A DNA stretch of 64,000 bases from Armatimonadota bacterium. Its GTDB lineage: Bacteria; Armatimonadota; Chthonomonadetes; Chthonomonadales; CAJBBX01. Below, one piece after another: positions 7,828-15,596 of the stretch. Below the pieces are notes generated by a model. It saw nothing but the letters and a program-made list of their open reading frames with translations, did not search any database and was not told the DNA's origin. Within the stretch, counting starts at the first letter, position 1. Every line of letters starts with the position of its first letter. A program made the translations under genes and the position numbers. The stretch is from contig JAPLCQ010000028.1 of NCBI GenBank assembly GCA_026392115.1, forward strand, positions 21,382-85,381, given 5' to 3'.

Positions 7828-7917
7828 CGTTTGGGCCGGTCGGCGAGGCGGCACGCGGGTCCCCGGCGCGACCGCACACATCGATGTGCGGTACTATGTG
7901 TAGCACGGAGGCGCCCT

Positions 7918-8118
7918 ATGGCTACCAACCTGATGCTCGACGACGACCTCATCGCGCAGGCGATGGAGGCCGGGCATCACCGGACCAAGCGCGAGACCGT
8001 GAACGAGGCGTTGCGGTCCTACGTGGCCTTGCTGCGGCAGCAGCGCATTTTGGACCTGTTCGGCCAGATGGACTTCGACCCCGAGTACAACTACAAGGCT
8101 GAGCGCAGCCGTCCGTGA
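7918..8118 (+). CDS. vapB: VapB-family type II antitoxin
   Basis: This 66-residue protein starts at an ATG preceded by CGGAGG at 7906-7911. It reads MATNLMLDDDLIAQAMEAGH, followed by TKRETVNEALRSYV and a C-terminal FDPEYNYKAERSR tail. That pattern matches the VapB (DUF2191-type) antitoxins: an N-terminal ribbon-helix-helix-like DNA-binding part and a C-terminal strand that wraps the toxin's active site. Its stop overlaps the toxin's GTG by four bases, so the pair is translationally coupled. By analogy the complex represses its own promoter upstream of 7900. Recognition is confident. Confidence 0.9.
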   Translation: MATNLMLDDDLIAQAMEAGHHRTKRETVNEALRSYVALLRQQRILDLFGQMDFDPEYNYKAERSRP

Positions 8119-8522
8119 GGGTGATCGTCGATACCTGCGTCTGGTCGTTGGCCCTACGGCGGTGCGCGGTGGAGCCGGGACCCGAGGTGACGGCCCTCAG
8201 GGACCTCGTCAGGGAGCGGCGGGTCGAGATTCTAGGCCCCATACGCCAGGAGTTGCTGTCGGGCATCCGCGACGAGCAGCGCTTTGAGCGCTTGCGTACG
8301 CATCTGGCCGCATTCCCGGACATCCCACTGGAACCAAGCGACTACGTCGAAGCGGCCCGATGCTCCAACCGATGCCGCTCGGCGGGCATCCAGGGCTCAG
8401 CTACGGACTTCGTGATCTGTGCCGCCGCCCTGCGCCGCGACCTGGCCATCTTCACCACCGACGCCGACTTCGATCACTACGCGCGGGTGCTCGGCGTGGC
8501 GCTCCACCGCGTGATAGGCTGA
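8115..8522 (+). CDS. vapC: VapC-family PIN-domain toxin (ribonuclease)
   Basis: This 135-residue PIN protein begins at a GTG overlapping the vapB stop. The acidic metal-binding residues of the fold are present: D6 in VIVDTCVW, E46 in IRQELLSG, D98 in ATDFVICAAAL, and D116/D118 in FTTDADFDHYA. PIN toxins cut RNA using Mg2+ and are held inactive by the cognate VapB. The length is normal and the catalytic set is complete, so the module is probably functional. Confidence 0.9.
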   Translation: MRVIVDTCVWSLALRRCAVEPGPEVTALRDLVRERRVEILGPIRQELLSGIRDEQRFERLRTHLAAFPDIPLEPSDYVEAARCSNRCRSAGIQGSATDFVICAAALRRDLAIFTTDADFDHYARVLGVALHRVIG

Positions 8523-8857
8523 ACCCCGGCCATTCGGCGGCTCGGGCGCCCTCGGCGGCGAGCCCTCGCCCGTCCAAGCGCCCAGGTCGCCCCTCCCACC
8601 CCGCCGTTTGTGGCACAATGCTCACCTGACGCGCCCGACCGGTCCGTGCCGGGACCGCGGGCGATGCGGGGGACACCAACGCGTGGCGATCGTCTGCGAC
8701 CCCCGGTATGCCGATGACGCGCACTTCTGGGAGACGGTGGCCGTGAACCGCGGCCTCACCGTCCGGATGTTCCCACTGGAAGAGGCGGCCCGGGCGTGGC
8801 TGGCGCAGGCATGAGGCGCGTCGCGCTCGCCGAATCGCCGCGATGGGAGGTTGCCGA
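8523..8857. other. Spacer between vapC and the MttB-like gene
   Basis: Just after vapC there is a weak stem (GGCTCG at 8539-8544 with CGAGCC at 8559-8564). The second half carries a short STAS-like coding remnant (listed separately). I see no clear promoter in the last 40 bases before the MttB-like gene. Confidence 0.4.
8608..8814 (+). pseudogene. Tail of a STAS/SpoIIAA-like small protein (5' truncated)
   Basis: An open frame from an ATG at 8608 gives 68 residues. Only its last roughly 43 look like protein: VAIVCDPRYADDAHFWETVA, then NRGLTVRMFPLEEAARAWL. This matches the C-terminal half of short STAS/SpoIIAA-like proteins, which usually end with ...AIV....gm.rmfe..a..rg..vrvF...eeA..WL and are about 120-130 residues long. 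The N-terminal half is missing and the first 25 residues are low in hydrophobic content. It is either a truncated remnant or a short protein starting at a GTG near 8683. It sits directly before the MttB-like gene but need not be functionally linked. Confidence 0.5.
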
Positions 8858-10291
8858 GTGATCACGTCCGTTCTCACCGATGCCCAGATCGCCAGGGTGA
8901 ATGACGCCTCGCTGACGATCCTCCAGCGCGTGGGCGTTCACCTGCCCCATCCCGAGGCCCTGCGGCTCTTCGAGGAGGCCGGCGCGACGGCGGATCGCGA
9001 CGCCCAGCGCGTCCGCATCCCCGCCGACCTGGTGCGCCGGTGCGTGGAGCAGGCGGGCAAGGAGTTCACCCTCTACGGCCGCGACGAGGGCCGCACGGCC
9101 CGCTTCGGGCAGCGATGCCGCAACTACAACTCCATCGCGGGCGAGGCGCTCTGGGTGGACGAGCTGGGCGCGCCGCGCCGCTACTGCCGTCTGGAGGACG
9201 TGGCCGCCGCCGCCCGGCTGGGCGACGCGCTGGCGCCGATCAACGTCGTGGGCGCCATGGCCGATCCGCGGGAGCTGCCGCCCGCCGCCCGCTGCGTGGC
9301 CGTGGTGGCCGAACTGCTGCGGAACACAACCAAGCCCATCACCTTCTGGTACCACGACCGGGCGTCGGCTCGCTTCGTCAACGAGATCATGGTGGCCGTG
9401 CGCGGCTCCGAGGCGGCCGCACGGGCAATGCCCCTGGCCTACCCCTTCCTCGAGCCGATCAGCCCGCTCCGCTTCCCGCACAACGGCGTGGACCTGCTCT
9501 TCGAGACCGGCAAGCTGGGCCTCCCCGTGCCCGTGGGCCCCATGGCGCAGATGGGCCTCTCGGCGCCGGGCACAGTGGCCGGGACGCTGGCCCAAGAGAA
9601 CGCCGAGATACTGGCCGGCATCTGCGTGGTCCAGCTCATCTCGCCCGGCGTCCCCGTGGTCTACGGCGGCATCTGCCACGCCTTCGACATGCGGACGACG
9701 CAGCTCATCTTCAGCGGCCCCGAGCAGGCGCTCTTCGGAGTGGCGCTGACGCAGATCGGCAAGAGCTGGGGCCTGCCCGTCTACATCAACGTGGGCCTCA
9801 CCGATTCGAAGGTCGCCGACGCGCAGGCGGGCCTCGAGGCGGGCGTGACGCTGGCCTACGGCGCCGCTGCCGGGGCGGACATCTTCGGGCACCTGGGCAT
9901 CAGCGGCGTGGACCAGGCCGCATCGCTGGACATGCTGGTGCTGCAGGCCGAGATCGTCCGCTACGTGGAGAGCACGCTGCGCGAGATCGACTTCAGCGAC
10001 GCGGCGTTCGGCCTCGACGTCATCGAGGAGGTCGGCCCCGGAGGCCGCTTCCTGGACCAGATGCACACGGCTCGCCGTTTCCGCAAGGAGCTCTGGTTCC
10101 CGGAGCTGCTGGACCGCTACTTCTACGACCAGTGGCTCGTCTACGGCGCCACCACGCTGGAGCAGCGCTGCCGCATGCGCCGCGAGGAGCTGCTGGCGAC
10201 CCACACGCCGGAGCCGCTGCCCGACGACCTGGAGCGCGAGGTCGCCCGCATCGTCGCCGCCGCCCAGCGACACCTTGGAGGGGAAGCATGA
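8858..10291 (+). CDS. MttB-superfamily (trimethylamine methyltransferase-like) protein, non-pyrrolysine
   Basis: GTG at 8858 is chosen because GGGAGG (8845-8850) lies 7 bases upstream; the in-frame ATG at 8843 would contain that site. The 477-residue product matches the MttB superfamily: an opening LTDAQIARVNDASLTILQRV, a middle region PFLEPISPLRF and the C-terminal half of a TIM barrel (GISGVDQAASLDMLVLQAEI). True TMA methyltransferases contain an in-frame UAG read as pyrrolysine. This gene is uninterrupted, so it belongs to the non-pyrrolysine branch, one member of which is known to demethylate glycine betaine onto a corrinoid protein. No corrinoid protein gene is visible here. It overlaps the next gene by four bases (ATGA), so it probably acts with that dehydrogenase. 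Confidence 0.85.
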   Translation: MITSVLTDAQIARVNDASLTILQRVGVHLPHPEALRLFEEAGATADRDAQRVRIPADLVRRCVEQAGKEFTLYGRDEGRTARFGQRCRNYNSIAGEALWVDELGAPRRYCRLEDVAAAARLGDALAPINVVGAMADPRELPPAARCVAVVAELLRNTTKPITFWYHDRASARFVNEIMVAVRGSEAAARAMPLAYPFLEPISPLRFPHNGVDLLFETGKLGLPVPVGPMAQMGLSAPGTVAGTLAQENAEILAGICVVQLISPGVPVVYGGICHAFDMRTTQLIFSGPEQALFGVALTQIGKSWGLPVYINVGLTDSKVADAQAGLEAGVTLAYGAAAGADIFGHLGISGVDQAASLDMLVLQAEIVRYVESTLREIDFSDAAFGLDVIEEVGPGGRFLDQMHTARRFRKELWFPELLDRYFYDQWLVYGATTLEQRCRMRREELLATHTPEPLPDDLEREVARIVAAAQRHLGGEA

Positions 10292-11316
10292 AGGCTGCAG
10301 TCGTCGTTGAGCCGGGACGGTTGGAGGTGCGCGAGCTGCCGCCGCCGGCGCTCGGCCCCTACGATGCGCTCTGCGAGATGCTCTGGGGGGCCACCTGCAC
10401 GGGCACCGACGGCCACCTGATCCATGGCCGCTTCCCGTGGCCCGTGCGCTACCCGACCGTGATCGGCCACGAGAGCGTCGGCCGTGTCGTACGGGTGGGC
10501 GCCGAGGTGCGCCGCCTTCGCGTCGGCGACCTGGTCTCCCGCGTGGGCCTGCCCGCCGCTCCCGACGGCTCCTTCGACGTGAACTGGGGCGGCTTCAGCG
10601 AACAGGGCGTCGCCCGCGACTGGATGGCCATGCGCGACGACGGCCTGCCCGAGGCCCAGTGGCGCGGCCACTCCATCAACCAAGCGATCCCGCCGGACAT
10701 CGACCCGGCGTCGGCCACCATGGTGGTCACGTGGCGCGAGACGCTGAGCGCCATCACCCGCATGGGCCTGGGCCGCGGCGCGTCGGCGCTGGTCATCGGC
10801 TCCGGGGGCAACGGCCTGGCCTTCGCGGCGCATGCCCGGCACATGGGCGCCGAGAGCGTGGCCATGGTGGGCGGCGCCGGCCGGTTGGAGACCTGCCGGG
10901 CGGCGGGCGCCGACCTTGCTCTGGCCTACTCCGCCTCTGATACGCACGACCGGCTCCGCGATGCCCGGCCCGGCGGGTTCGACTTCGTCATCGACGCCGT
11001 GGGCAAGTCCGGCGTGGCGGACGCCTACCTGCCGCACGTGGCCGCCGGCGGCATGCTCACCATCTACGGCGTCGATGACTTCGGCAAGTGCATGCTCAAC
11101 CCGACGCGGGCCCGGGGAACGTTCACCCTCTACCAGGGCGGTTACGAGGAGGCCGAGGCCCATCACCGCGTCATTGACCTGATGCGGTCCGGCGACCTGG
11201 ACGCCTCGGTCTGGCTCAACCTGGCGCACCCCTACCCGCTGTCCGAGATCAGCCGCGCCTTCGACGACCTGGCGGCGCGGAAGCATGTGAAAGCCCTCAT
11301 CCGGCTGGGAGCGTAG
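10288..11316 (+). CDS. Zn-type medium-chain dehydrogenase coupled to the MttB-like gene
   Basis: The ATG at 10288 overlaps the previous stop and has GGAGGGG just upstream. The 342-residue product is a medium-chain dehydrogenase/reductase: GATCTGTDGH carries the catalytic-zinc Cys, VIGHESVGRVV the His-Glu pair, and VIGSGGNGLAFAA the NAD(P)-binding turn (near residue 175). The usual four-cysteine structural-zinc lobe is absent; the region instead reads LPAAPDGSFDVNWGGFSEQG. It should oxidise an alcohol or reduce the matching carbonyl compound. Tight coupling to an MttB-like protein suggests a joint pathway for a methylated or quaternary amine or polyol, but the substrate is not readable from sequence. 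Confidence 0.85.
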   Translation: MKAAVVVEPGRLEVRELPPPALGPYDALCEMLWGATCTGTDGHLIHGRFPWPVRYPTVIGHESVGRVVRVGAEVRRLRVGDLVSRVGLPAAPDGSFDVNWGGFSEQGVARDWMAMRDDGLPEAQWRGHSINQAIPPDIDPASATMVVTWRETLSAITRMGLGRGASALVIGSGGNGLAFAAHARHMGAESVAMVGGAGRLETCRAAGADLALAYSASDTHDRLRDARPGGFDFVIDAVGKSGVADAYLPHVAAGGMLTIYGVDDFGKCMLNPTRARGTFTLYQGGYEEAEAHHRVIDLMRSGDLDASVWLNLAHPYPLSEISRAFDDLAARKHVKALIRLGA

Positions 11317-11321
11317 GCGCC

Positions 11322-14300
11322 ATGGCGGCACGGCGGCTCATGGTCTACGCCGTCGCGCTGGCCTGCGCCGCGTGGAGCCTCGCGGGGGCGAGGGCGGGGC
11401 CGTCCCTAGTTGAGACCGTGGGGCGCGGCGTCACCGTGGTGCGCGACGACAACGGCGCCTGGGCCGCCGACTGCAGCAAGGACATCACCCACCAGGTCGA
11501 GCCCGCCTACACGGCCCGCAAGACGCTGGACCTCTCCGCCGTGCCCGAGGCGCTCTGGGCGCGCGTCCGGGCGGTCCGCATCTCGGCCCTGTTCATGGTG
11601 CGCGACTACTCACGCGTCGCCGGAGGCACGGTTGACGGGCTCGACGAGGCCTACCAGGTCATCGTCAACGGTCGCGTACATACCTACCCCACCAGCGGCG
11701 GCCCAACCCCCTTCGCTGAAGGCGCGCCGCAGGCGCCGGAGTGGTTCGACCACGACATCCCGCCGTCCGAACTACGCCGCGGCCCCAATGAGGTGCTCAT
11801 CCGCAAGGCGCCGGGCAGGGGCGGGTACGACGACTACCTCTATCTCTGCATCGACCTGACGGCCCATCGCGGCCACAGCGCCGTGGCCTTTGACGGTTCT
11901 TCGTGGCGCACGGACGCCCTCACCGTGCCCGGCGGCTCGGGCGAGTACATGGTGCGGGCCTACCTGGTGACCGAGAGCGGCACCGTCGCGGCCACATGGC
12001 GGCCCCATGCGGCGCCCGCGCTGGAAGACCCCGACGGCATCATCGGCTATGCGGGTCCGACCGTCGGCGCCGCCGCCGACGGTTCCGTGCGCCTGGAGTG
12101 GAACCCGGCTGCGCTGGACGCGCGGGAGCCGGTTGAAGTCTCGTTCGACGGCTCGGCCGACGCCGAGATGCTCTGGCTGGACGGCCAGGGCAACCCCACG
12201 GGCGAGGCCTCGCGCGGCGGACGGCTGGCGCTCCAGGCGGGCGGGGCGCCGCGACCGGGCGGTGTGCTGCTGCGCAGGCTTGGGCAGGCTGGCATCCGCT
12301 CCGTGACGCTGCGCGCCTGCCGCGCCCTGCGGCCGCCTCCGGCTCCCATCGACCCCTGCCCGCCCATGGCCGCGCCCTTCGCGATTCCCAAGCCGCGTCC
12401 GCCCTCGGCCGTCGTGGGCCGCTCCGGCGCGACGCTGTTGGGCAGCCGGCTGGATGCGCGCTTCGAGGCCGGCGGCAGGCTGCGGCTCGTTTCGCTGCGC
12501 AATCGGGTCACCGGCACGGAGATGCTCCGCGCCGGGGCGCCTCCGCTCTTCACGGTGATGGTCGACGGACGGCGTTACAGCGGGAGCGGTGACTTTCGCT
12601 TGCTTTCGATGTGCCTGGATGGAGCAGGGCTTCGCGCGGAACTGGCGCTGGCCGACCCGCCGCTGCGGGCCGAGCTCACGGCTCACATGGAGCCCGAGGG
12701 GCTGCGCCTGGGCCTGAACCTCCGGCCCGCCGGTTCGGCCGACGTGGCCGCATCGGTCGTCTTCCCGCACCTGGAGGGGCTGGCCGCATCGCCCGACCCG
12801 CGCGACGACCGCTACTTCTACCCGCTGGGTGGAGGCATCATGGCCGGGACGCCCTCGCTGGTGCGGGCGGTCTACGGCGACCATCAGGCCCTCTACCAGG
12901 TGATGGACCTCCACAGCCCCACCCGGGGCGGCGGCCTCTACCTGCGCGTGGACGACGCCCAGGGCATGCACAAGGCGCTGACCCTGCGCAAGGCCGTCGC
13001 CGGCCTGCCCGAGGTGAACTGCGACCGCGTGGCCACGCTCACCCGAGAGGAGTTTAGGGGCGCCAATCCGCTCTCGGGCGCGCCGGGAGTGGGCATGGCT
13101 GTGGAGTATTCCCTGCGGACCCGCGCTCCGGGAGCGGCGTTCCCCACGTCGCCCGCGCTGCTCGCCGCGCATCCCGGCGACTGGCACGAAGCCATGGAGG
13201 CCTACGCGGCCTGGGCGCACCGGGCCTGGCGCTTCCGACCCATGGGGTCGCGCCTCCGCTCGGTCCACACGATGACGCCGCGCGGTTGGTCCACCGACCA
13301 ACTCTTCAGGGACGGCGCCTACCGGTCCGACCTGGTCGACCCGGCCCTGCCCGGCGTGGGCCGCAGCATGACCGACTGCCTGGAGCTGATGTCCTGGTGG
13401 GACTGGTCGCCGCTGGGTCCGCTCGGAGCGCCCATGGACAACCTGGCCGCCAGGCTGACGCCGGAGCAGGTCCGCGCCTGCGAGCCCTACCTCGTGCGGG
13501 ACCCCGTCACCGGAGCCCGCATGTGGAACAACCAGCCCGGCGACTACGCAGGCTACAATGATCGCTTCGGCGGCCTGCCCGCCTTCCGCCGCGCCGTGGA
13601 GGGCTGGAAGCGGCAGGGCGCGTTGGTCACGCCCTACACCGATCCCTTCCGCTTCGACGAGTTCTGCCCGCTTGGTCGTCAGGTGGGCGACCGGTGGGGC
13701 GTGGTGGGCGTCGACGGCAAGGTGACCCACGTCTACGACGTTCTGAACCCCTGCCACTACGTGCCCGAGGTTCGCCGCTGGGTGGCCGACACCATGGAGC
13801 GCGTGCTCCGCGAGACCGGCGCCGACGGCCTCAGGCTGGACGAATATGGCCACATGGGTTGGGCCTGCTTCAGCCCCGCGCACCGGCACACCTGGGCCGA
13901 ACCGGGCGTCTCGCAGTGGAACAAGGCGGTGGCCGAGACGACCGCCGAGGTGCGCCGCCGCATGGACCGCATCCGGCCGGGCCTCGTTCTCACCACCGAG
14001 CATCCCGGCTACGACTACCTGATGCGGAGCATCGACGGCTGCATCACCTACGACCTGACGGTGCAGTCAACGCCCCTGCGCCCGCTGGAGTGCAACCTGC
14101 AGCGGTTCTACTTCCCCGAGTGCAAGGCCTATGAGCTGGACTACACCGGCCGCCCCGCATCCATGGCGAAGAAGCTCTGGAACGGCGTGGCCTCGTTCGC
14201 CACGGCGTGGGATCGGCGGCACATACTCTACCTGCGCCGCAACGAGGACGCTCTGAACTCGCGCGACTGCCGGGCGCTGATCACCGCGCCCAGCCGAGGG

Positions 14301-14738
14301 GTCGCCGTCAATCGCTTCTCCGCCGGGTCCAAGACGCTCTTCCACATCTACAACGCCACGGGCCATACCTTCGCCGGTCCCGCGTTGGACGCGCCCCTGG
14401 CCTCCGACAGGCATCTGGTGGACCTGCAGGCGCAGCGCGAGGTGCGGCCCGGCCCCGGCGGCGCGGTACATCTGGCGCTCCCGCGGGACGGCGTGGCCTG
14501 CCTTGCCCGTCTGCCCCGCATGCTCTCGGTTAGGCGAAGCGGCGACCGGCTGGTTGTCACCTCCGCGGGCGCTCGGAAGGGCGATCGCATCGCGCTGGCC
14601 GGGGCCGAGGGCGAGGAGCTGGCCGGCGCGGTCCTGGCGCGACCCTCCGGCGCGACGGAGTTCGCCGCGAACGGCTCCGCCCGCGCCGTGCTGCTGCTGC
14701 GCCGGGGGCTGCTGGTGGACCTGCTACCGTTGCCCTGA
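11322..14738 (+). CDS. Large secreted glycosidase-like protein (DUF6259-like)
   Basis: This 1138-residue protein begins 5 bases after the dehydrogenase stop, so it may share the transcript. It has a signal peptide (MVYAVALACAAWSLAGARA). The first roughly 330 residues are beta-rich and jelly-roll-like. From about residue 640 a TIM-barrel-like part carries WWDWSPLGPLG, DPVTGARMWNNQPGDYAGY, GADGLRLDEYGHMGWACFSP and LTTEHPGYDYLM. The D in GLRLDEYG sits where alpha-glycosidase nucleophiles often lie. The layout resembles DUF6259-type proteins, which are distantly related to alpha-amylase/GH36-like barrels. The substrate is unknown. It overlaps the convergent next gene by 15 bases at the 3' end. 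Confidence 0.7.
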   Translation: MAARRLMVYAVALACAAWSLAGARAGPSLVETVGRGVTVVRDDNGAWAADCSKDITHQVEPAYTARKTLDLSAVPEALWARVRAVRISALFMVRDYSRVAGGTVDGLDEAYQVIVNGRVHTYPTSGGPTPFAEGAPQAPEWFDHDIPPSELRRGPNEVLIRKAPGRGGYDDYLYLCIDLTAHRGHSAVAFDGSSWRTDALTVPGGSGEYMVRAYLVTESGTVAATWRPHAAPALEDPDGIIGYAGPTVGAAADGSVRLEWNPAALDAREPVEVSFDGSADAEMLWLDGQGNPTGEASRGGRLALQAGGAPRPGGVLLRRLGQAGIRSVTLRACRALRPPPAPIDPCPPMAAPFAIPKPRPPSAVVGRSGATLLGSRLDARFEAGGRLRLVSLRNRVTGTEMLRAGAPPLFTVMVDGRRYSGSGDFRLLSMCLDGAGLRAELALADPPLRAELTAHMEPEGLRLGLNLRPAGSADVAASVVFPHLEGLAASPDPRDDRYFYPLGGGIMAGTPSLVRAVYGDHQALYQVMDLHSPTRGGGLYLRVDDAQGMHKALTLRKAVAGLPEVNCDRVATLTREEFRGANPLSGAPGVGMAVEYSLRTRAPGAAFPTSPALLAAHPGDWHEAMEAYAAWAHRAWRFRPMGSRLRSVHTMTPRGWSTDQLFRDGAYRSDLVDPALPGVGRSMTDCLELMSWWDWSPLGPLGAPMDNLAARLTPEQVRACEPYLVRDPVTGARMWNNQPGDYAGYNDRFGGLPAFRRAVEGWKRQGALVTPYTDPFRFDEFCPLGRQVGDRWGVVGVDGKVTHVYDVLNPCHYVPEVRRWVADTMERVLRETGADGLRLDEYGHMGWACFSPAHRHTWAEPGVSQWNKAVAETTAEVRRRMDRIRPGLVLTTEHPGYDYLMRSIDGCITYDLTVQSTPLRPLECNLQRFYFPECKAYELDYTGRPASMAKKLWNGVASFATAWDRRHILYLRRNEDALNSRDCRALITAPSRGVAVNRFSAGSKTLFHIYNATGHTFAGPALDAPLASDRHLVDLQAQREVRPGPGGAVHLALPRDGVACLARLPRMLSVRRSGDRLVVTSAGARKGDRIALAGAEGEELAGAVLARPSGATEFAANGSARAVLLLRRGLLVDLLPLP

Positions 14739-15596
14739 CGCCGCGGTCTCATCCGCCCGGACCCTCGCGGCATCGAGGGCCGCCTGCGCCATCTGGCGTC
14801 GTCGTCCGGGCTCCGTCTTGCGGAGTAGCCGCTCCATGGCTGCGATAGACTCGCCGCGGCCCATGGCCCGCACCACCTGGACCAGGTCCCAGTCGCGCTT
14901 GTCGGCCGCTCGCTTGGCGAGGAGGGACATGACATGCGGGCCCACGCGGTCGTAGTCCTCCGGCCAGGCACCGGCGCCGGCGGCGCGGAGCAGCGCCCGA
15001 GCCGCCTTGCGGACCTCGCTCGACGAACTCCGGCTGAGGCACTGTATGGCGAGGGCCAGCCCCTCCGGCGCCTCCAGATCGGCGAGTGCGCCGAGGCAGG
15101 TCAGCTTGAGCCGCTGCCGATTCACCGGGAGTAGCCTGGCGACCACGTACCAGATCAGCGGGAACGCCGCGATGGCGATGTAGAACGGTAGTTCGGCCAT
15201 CTTCATCTCGCGTCCCATCTTGACGATGAACCGGATGAAGAGGCCCAGCCCCGTGGCGACGTAGACCGCGGGCGGTATGACCACCGCCGGGCGGCGGAAC
15301 CGTCGCCAGCAGGCTTCCACCAGGACGCGCCCCGCCTCCCGGGCCCGGTCCGGCGTGGTAACGGCGTAGGGCAGGCAGTTGGCCGCAAGGCAGACGTCCC
15401 ACATGGGCCGCACCTTGGGGCCGCGCAGGATGTGGATCAGCGGGCCGTAGGCATGGTCGGGCCTTCCCTCCAGCACGGCGTCCACGGCGGCAACCAGGCG
15501 CCGGCTGGTGGCGAACACCTGCGCGATCTCGGTCACCTGCGCCCGCATTTCCGGGTCCATCTTCAGCGGTTCGTACGTCGGGTCTGTCTGCTCCAC
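14724..15596 (-). CDS. Membrane protein with HEAT-like C-terminal repeats
   Basis: The 290-residue product has two predicted membrane segments in the middle: one in VVIPPAVYVATGLGLFIRFI and one in LPFYIAIAAFPLIWYVVARL. An alpha-helical N-terminal part and a C-terminal part with HEAT-like helices (LTCLGALADLEAPEGLALAI, KAARALLRAAGAGAW) flank them. HEAT repeats usually serve protein binding. No catalytic motif is seen and I do not recognise the family. Its last codons overlap the tail of the convergent large glycosidase-like gene. Confidence 0.65.
   Translation of the reverse strand: MEQTDPTYEPLKMDPEMRAQVTEIAQVFATSRRLVAAVDAVLEGRPDHAYGPLIHILRGPKVRPMWDVCLAANCLPYAVTTPDRAREAGRVLVEACWRRFRRPAVVIPPAVYVATGLGLFIRFIVKMGREMKMAELPFYIAIAAFPLIWYVVARLLPVNRQRLKLTCLGALADLEAPEGLALAIQCLSRSSSSEVRKAARALLRAAGAGAWPEDYDRVGPHVMSLLAKRAADKRDWDLVQVVRAMGRGESIAAMERLLRKTEPGRRRQMAQAALDAARVRADETAASGQR

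Follow-up and report, generated by a model that had tools for sequence, protein, structure and literature searches.

A branch of non-pyrrolysine MttB-family proteins with genomic links to family 4 glycoside hydrolases, and the deletion that placed one member beside an unrelated dehydrogenase gene in an Armatimonadota bacterium

MtgB of Desulfitobacterium hafniense, a glycine betaine:corrinoid methyltransferase (2QNE, 9YCE), is the closest solved relative of the protein described here; the trimethylamine methyltransferase MttB of Methanosarcina barkeri (7XCL, 7XCN), with pyrrolysine at position 334, belongs to the same superfamily. For all the size of the MttB superfamily, which is very large, only about six of its substrates, nearly all of them betaines, have to our knowledge been established; we know of no MttB-family enzyme that cleaves a sugar methyl ether. 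All characterised members without pyrrolysine use quaternary amines (PMC12155760). Corrinoid proteins of MttB-family enzymes can be shared and encoded at a distance. MtpB, MtcB, and MtyB of Eubacterium limosum use a common corrinoid protein, MtqC, whose gene lies elsewhere (PMC12155760). Likewise, mtgBCD are dispersed in Ruegeria pomeroyi, with the corrinoid protein again encoded elsewhere (PMC12478193). Since such unlinked, shared corrinoid proteins are known, the lack of a corrinoid gene next to an MttB-family gene is not unusual.

The window analysed here is a 64,000-nucleotide stretch of an Armatimonadota genome (5.72 Mb, 98.6% complete) that holds an MttB-family gene and a medium-chain dehydrogenase/reductase gene (Table 1). 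In profile searches, residues 4-470 of the MttB-family protein matched PF06253 with 276 bits (cut-off 25), and the dehydrogenase matched ADH_N (37 bits) and ADH_zinc_N (50 bits), both above their cut-offs. An earlier note on this DNA had described an MttB gene without pyrrolysine that overlaps by four bases a dehydrogenase gene without the structural-zinc lobe, and each part of this description was borne out. The MttB-family reading frame contained no in-frame TAG, and Leu314 aligned with pyrrolysine 334 of MttB. Cysteines occur in the dehydrogenase at positions 29, 37, 203, and 268 only, so that the four-cysteine lobe, which is optional in the medium-chain dehydrogenase/reductase family, is absent; C37, H60, and E61 or E151 form a candidate catalytic-zinc set.

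Table 1. Positions in the window of the two genes, their overlap, and the deletion junction.
Feature	Position	Strand	Details
MttB-superfamily methyltransferase gene, non-pyrrolysine	8858..10291	+	GTG at 8858, TGA at 10289-10291, 477 aa
Medium-chain dehydrogenase/reductase gene	10288..11316	+	ATG at 10288, stop at 11314-11316, 342 aa
ATGA stop/start overlap of MttB-family gene and dehydrogenase gene, 4 bases	10288..10291	+	Seen in the window genome only
Deletion junction	10277..10283	.	Stretch of ~1.93 kb, present in the two same-genus genomes, is missing here; 7 bases match on either side of it

In its AlphaFold model (mean pLDDT 91.9), the MttB-family protein is predicted to have the TIM-barrel fold and C-terminal dimerisation segment of MttB and MtgB. 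The model matched MtgB (2qne/9yce) along the whole fold (471 residues; Z 52.5 with 2qne; rmsd 1.8 Å). With MttB as bound to MttC (7xcn), the match had a Z of 51.9 and an rmsd of 2.3 Å. As in MtgB, leucine occupies the pyrrolysine position, and MtgB His346 corresponds to H345 of the window protein, while Met229 occupies the alignment position of Met249, the mobile active-site methionine of MttB. Sequence identity to MtgB was, however, only 26-28% (218 bits), MttB Tyr364 was not conserved, and the trimethylamine methyltransferase equivalog model TIGR02369 scored 343 bits, below its cut-off of 525. In a quick tree, relatives of the window protein formed a single, well-separated branch (SH-aLRT 98) that excluded MtgB, MttB, and the second MttB copy carried by Lokiarchaeota. 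Within this branch, the window protein grouped with Armatimonadota members, including those of L046 and G008, which are linked to glycoside-hydrolase-family-4 (GH4) genes. The clade spans about ten phyla, among them Armatimonadota, the PVC group, and Lokiarchaeota, and is apparently an undescribed, non-pyrrolysine branch of the MttB superfamily.

Residues that are invariant or nearly so in the clade differ from their MtgB equivalents (in brackets) at nine aligned positions: W164 (S165), E199 (N200), Q231 (M232), H274 (A275), Q282 (S283), Y309 (R310), N311 (G312), D352 (F354), and Q353 (M355). The polar residues E199, Q231, H274, Q282, N311, D352, and Q353 thus stand for N, M, A, S, G, F, and M of MtgB, which is largely apolar or small at these places. 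For this comparison, the MtgB and MttB sequences were taken from search alignments, and Gly110/Thr111 of MttB were left out, their alignment being unstable between methods. In the model, most of these residues sit where a predicted barrel strand ends on its C-terminal side, or immediately beyond. Active sites of TIM barrels are found at these strand ends, and the residues may line the substrate pocket.

Comparison with two genomes of the same genus, L016 (MttB-family protein 96% identical) and L017 (93%), accounted for the contact between the two genes. In both, a gene of 593 or 636 codons on the opposite strand separates the MttB-family gene from the dehydrogenase gene; the L017 copy matches Asn_synthase (PF00733). 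By blastn, window positions 8680-10283 corresponded to L016 2228-3831 and positions 10277-14964 to L016 5761-10445. Relative to L016, approximately 1.93 kb is therefore missing from the window as a clean gap, with seven bases common at the junction. The ribosome-binding site of the dehydrogenase gene (GGAGGGG) is unchanged across the junction, and the tail of the MttB-family protein is slightly altered. Pairwise DNA identities (window-L016, 94.9%; window-L017, 91.0%; L016-L017, 91.1%) identify L016 as the sister and L017 as the outgroup. The middle gene was therefore present in the common ancestor and has been lost in the window lineage alone. Its presence in both same-genus genomes, together with the clean gap, identifies the four-base overlap as a deletion scar of this lineage.

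No homologue of the dehydrogenase was found within the flanks read in 68 further MttB loci (relatives 50-69% identical), and the two genes occur apart within the same family, the dehydrogenase without the MttB-family protein in G010 and the reverse in G007 and G008. The dehydrogenase is an unrelated gene that became adjacent by accident, and no conserved partner of the MttB-family protein. An error in the single metagenome-type assembly, which comprises 181 contigs, with a true arrangement as in the sister species, would be compatible with seven bases that align to both flanks; the intact MttB frame and the unchanged GGAGGGG at the junction make such an error quite improbable. The earlier note had suggested that both proteins may belong to one oxidation route. 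In favour of this proposal, an ATGA overlap permits translational coupling in the window species, and the family of the dehydrogenase includes polyol dehydrogenases. However, the opposite-strand gene in both sister genomes, the lack of a dehydrogenase homologue at the 68 further loci, and the separate occurrence of each gene in the family led to its rejection, and it is now considered extremely unlikely. The pair, whose conservation in other genomes the note had named as decisive, is not conserved. Of the methylated or quaternary amines or polyols that the note had named as possible substrates, the hint of a perhaps polyol-like one is upheld; the dehydrogenase is, on the evidence here, no functional partner.

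The surroundings of the pair showed further differences from L016. Upstream of the MttB-family gene, a gene remnant of approximately the last 45 codons (window 8684-8814, + strand) corresponds to an intact 122-aa protein in L016 (1994-2362), and some 225 bp of L016 (2003-2227) are missing from the window; together with the ~1.93-kb loss downstream, deletions therefore occurred on both sides of the gene. Just upstream (window 7831-8522, + strand) lie a VapB antitoxin-like gene (95 aa) and a PIN-domain gene (135 aa) that share a four-base overlap. Directly 3' of the dehydrogenase gene, window 11322-14738 (+ strand) encodes a 1138-aa protein with a DUF6259 match, which is kept in both same-genus genomes; this gene and the dehydrogenase gene may be the true pair of neighbours here.

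Genome searches showed where a corrinoid system is encoded. The earlier note had reported no corrinoid partner, which holds for the vicinity of the pair; a search of the genome, which the note had itself suggested, found a corrinoid protein, an activase, and UroD-family methyltransferases on other contigs, and a missing corrinoid system was thereby rejected. Contig C36 encodes a 210-aa corrinoid protein with a DxHxxG motif, for which the best NCBIfam model was MtgC (201 bits, below the MtgC cut-off), in a cluster that also holds a UroD protein and a homocysteine S-methyltransferase-like protein (S-methyl_trans gene). On contig C32, a RACo-type activase gene lies directly downstream of a gene for an MtaA/CmuA-like UroD methyltransferase. 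Proteins with PF02607, a domain found in MetH too, were present in 39 of 39 searched genomes that carry the MttB clade; the relevant ones are standalone forms of approximately 210-260 residues. In 66 of 70 MttB loci no corrinoid gene was adjacent, and in the remaining four, all Lokiarchaeal, one was present. MtrH-type second methyltransferases (PF02007) gave no match in the 21 bacterial genomes searched, the window genome included, and were detected only in the two Lokiarchaeal genomes that were searched.

The class to which the organism belongs was also surveyed for these systems. RACo was found in 18 of 31 genomes, and MtaB in 14 of these 18; the four with RACo and without MtaB comprise three genomes of the window genus, which carry the MttB clade, and G028, which carries a UroD cluster. 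Within the class the MttB clade was found only in RACo-bearing genomes, as scanned with a protein query (E 1e-40) instead of PF06253, a search beside which other MttB paralogues may exist in the class. A MtaB that shares the corrinoid protein was considered for the window genus and rejected, with no PF12176 match in G000, G002, and G003. Two other arrangements were recorded. In G024 (L132 5559-11531), genes for a corrinoid protein, MtaB, UroD, RACo, and a further UroD form a methanol-type system in Armatimonadota, whose corrinoid protein is 67% identical to that of the window genome. One cluster of G028 (L133 5048-12626) combines a corrinoid protein, a homocysteine S-methyltransferase-like protein, three UroD proteins, DUF1638, and RACo; neither MttB nor MtaB, of the types covered by the search, accompanies them.

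Compared with the described systems, this arrangement differs from the MtgBCA operon in that no corrinoid gene is linked to the MttB-family gene and an MtrH-type MtgA is absent from the bacterial genomes searched. It resembles that of E. limosum, in which several non-pyrrolysine MttB proteins are served by one corrinoid protein within the MtqC-MtqA system (PMC12155760), although the substrates there are carboxylate-bearing betaines, and the second methyltransferase of the window genome is probably of the UroD type. In R. pomeroyi (MtgBCDE), genes are scattered and the corrinoid protein is tied to a homocysteine methyltransferase (PMC12478193), much as the C36 cluster holds an S-methyl_trans gene; betaine catabolism is aerobic there, however, and involves the pterin protein MtgD, whereas the window genome has UroD proteins.

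A link to sugar metabolism emerged from the gene neighbourhoods of the clade. Of the 50 bacterial loci, 19, which represent eight phyla, had a GH4 gene within 3 kb of the MttB-family gene; in 18 of the 19 it was co-directional, in 15 it lay within 1 kb, and usually it was directly upstream. Close to MttB, at distances of up to 1 kb, GH4 density was 16 per 100 kb, whereas beyond 3 kb only 2 genes were counted in 394 kb (0.5 per 100 kb). Since the 39 clade-bearing genomes have only about 0-21 GH4 genes each, adjacency by chance should be rare. The linked GH4 proteins fall into several subgroups only ~30% identical to each other, which argues for repeated association with MttB. The best solved relative of the main group is the alpha-galacturonidase LplD (146 bits), and that of two other groups a phospho-glucosidase. 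In G008, from the same family as the window genome (MttB-family protein 63% identical), a GH4 gene lies 2.4 kb from MttB, and in some loci UroD genes are found directly upstream. Lokiarchaeal members of the clade occur near GPH-type sugar symporters and LmbE-type deacetylases, and in about nine of these loci a formylmethanofuran dehydrogenase operon is divergent from MttB. The GH4 linkage, the symporters, and the deacetylases point to a carbohydrate-related substrate, and the formylmethanofuran dehydrogenase points to methyl oxidation. Five Lokiarchaeal loci (L061, L067, L069, L073, and L075) show the divergent operon followed by MttB, an LmbE deacetylase, and a GPH symporter, a candidate compact methyl-oxidation locus. 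In the open-access papers searched, no report connected MttB with GH4 or with methylated sugars.

These observations are best explained, with about an even chance of being right, if the MttB-family protein is a corrinoid-dependent first methyltransferase (MT1) that takes methyl groups from a donor linked to, or resembling, a sugar and works via an unlinked corrinoid protein, its pairing with the dehydrogenase being a deletion accident. The substrate would bind at the barrel mouth and would most likely be a sugar or uronic acid that bears a methyl group, or else a sugar with a quaternary amine attached. Its methyl group would pass to Co(I) of the MtgC-like corrinoid protein, a shared protein whose gene is on another contig. 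The RACo-type activase would reduce this protein, thereby repairing oxidised cobalt; a UroD-family methyltransferase would probably hand the methyl group on, to tetrahydrofolate or a thiol. In relatives, the co-directional GH4, an NAD-dependent glycosidase, may release or process the sugar part. Several observations sit less easily with a sugar-linked donor. No GH4 gene lies beside MttB in the window species; of the seven GH4 genes in the genome, five were compared, and their identity to MttB-linked GH4s was only ~25-33%, the exception being a 78% match to a GH4 of L044 whose gene is 6 kb away from an MttB gene. At 31 of the 50 bacterial loci, some of them on short contigs, no GH4 gene was found within 3 kb. 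Moreover, the C36 corrinoid protein, in its UroD/homocysteine-S-methyltransferase cluster, may have a methyl donor of its own.

A serious rival, because every proven substrate of non-pyrrolysine members is a quaternary amine (PMC12155760), is an ordinary demethylase of glycine betaine or a similar compound that works through the unlinked MtgC-like protein, with GH4 as part of general glycan metabolism. The status of MtgB as closest solved relative and the proximity of the window-genome corrinoid protein to MtgC models agree with such an enzyme. The low identity to MtgB and the long separating branch, the nine differing positions, among them Y309 for R310, and the strong, repeated GH4 linkage speak against it, and it is regarded as possible but somewhat unlikely. 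An MttB fold that acts without a corrinoid, or is non-catalytic, having lost methyl transfer in favour of another action on sugar, would agree with the many loci that lack an adjacent corrinoid gene. This is judged very unlikely in view of the corrinoid protein in all 39 genomes, the adjacent one in the four Lokiarchaeal loci, the formylmethanofuran dehydrogenase operons, which fit methyl oxidation, and the confinement of the clade, within the class, to RACo-bearing genomes. The preferred reading of a sugar-linked donor can be narrowed to a corrinoid-dependent methyl-sugar demethylase, for example an enzyme for the anaerobic O-demethylation of 4-O-methylglucuronate, or of some other methyl uronate, that a GH4 uronidase would supply; in so specific a form it is a doubtful proposition.

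For the pathway once drawn from the two touching genes, the result is a caution that a four-base overlap in a single genome is no evidence for a pathway. For the family, the genomic context of GH4 and sugar-related genes is a lead for which no precedent was found in the open-access papers searched: a clade whose members range through Armatimonadota, the PVC group, and Lokiarchaeota, with its ties to GH4 and to sugar transporters, speaks for another class of substrate, with MttB-GH4 as a concrete gene pair. If the clade does consist of methyl-sugar demethylases, these would be the first MttB-family enzymes to act on a non-amine substrate. If the substrate is a methyl uronate such as 4-O-methylglucuronate, they would provide an oxygen-free route for a sugar that is among the commonest methylated ones of plant biomass. 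The clade may thus join glycan degradation with methyl-group metabolism in microbes of lakes, sediments, and the subsurface, including Asgard archaea.
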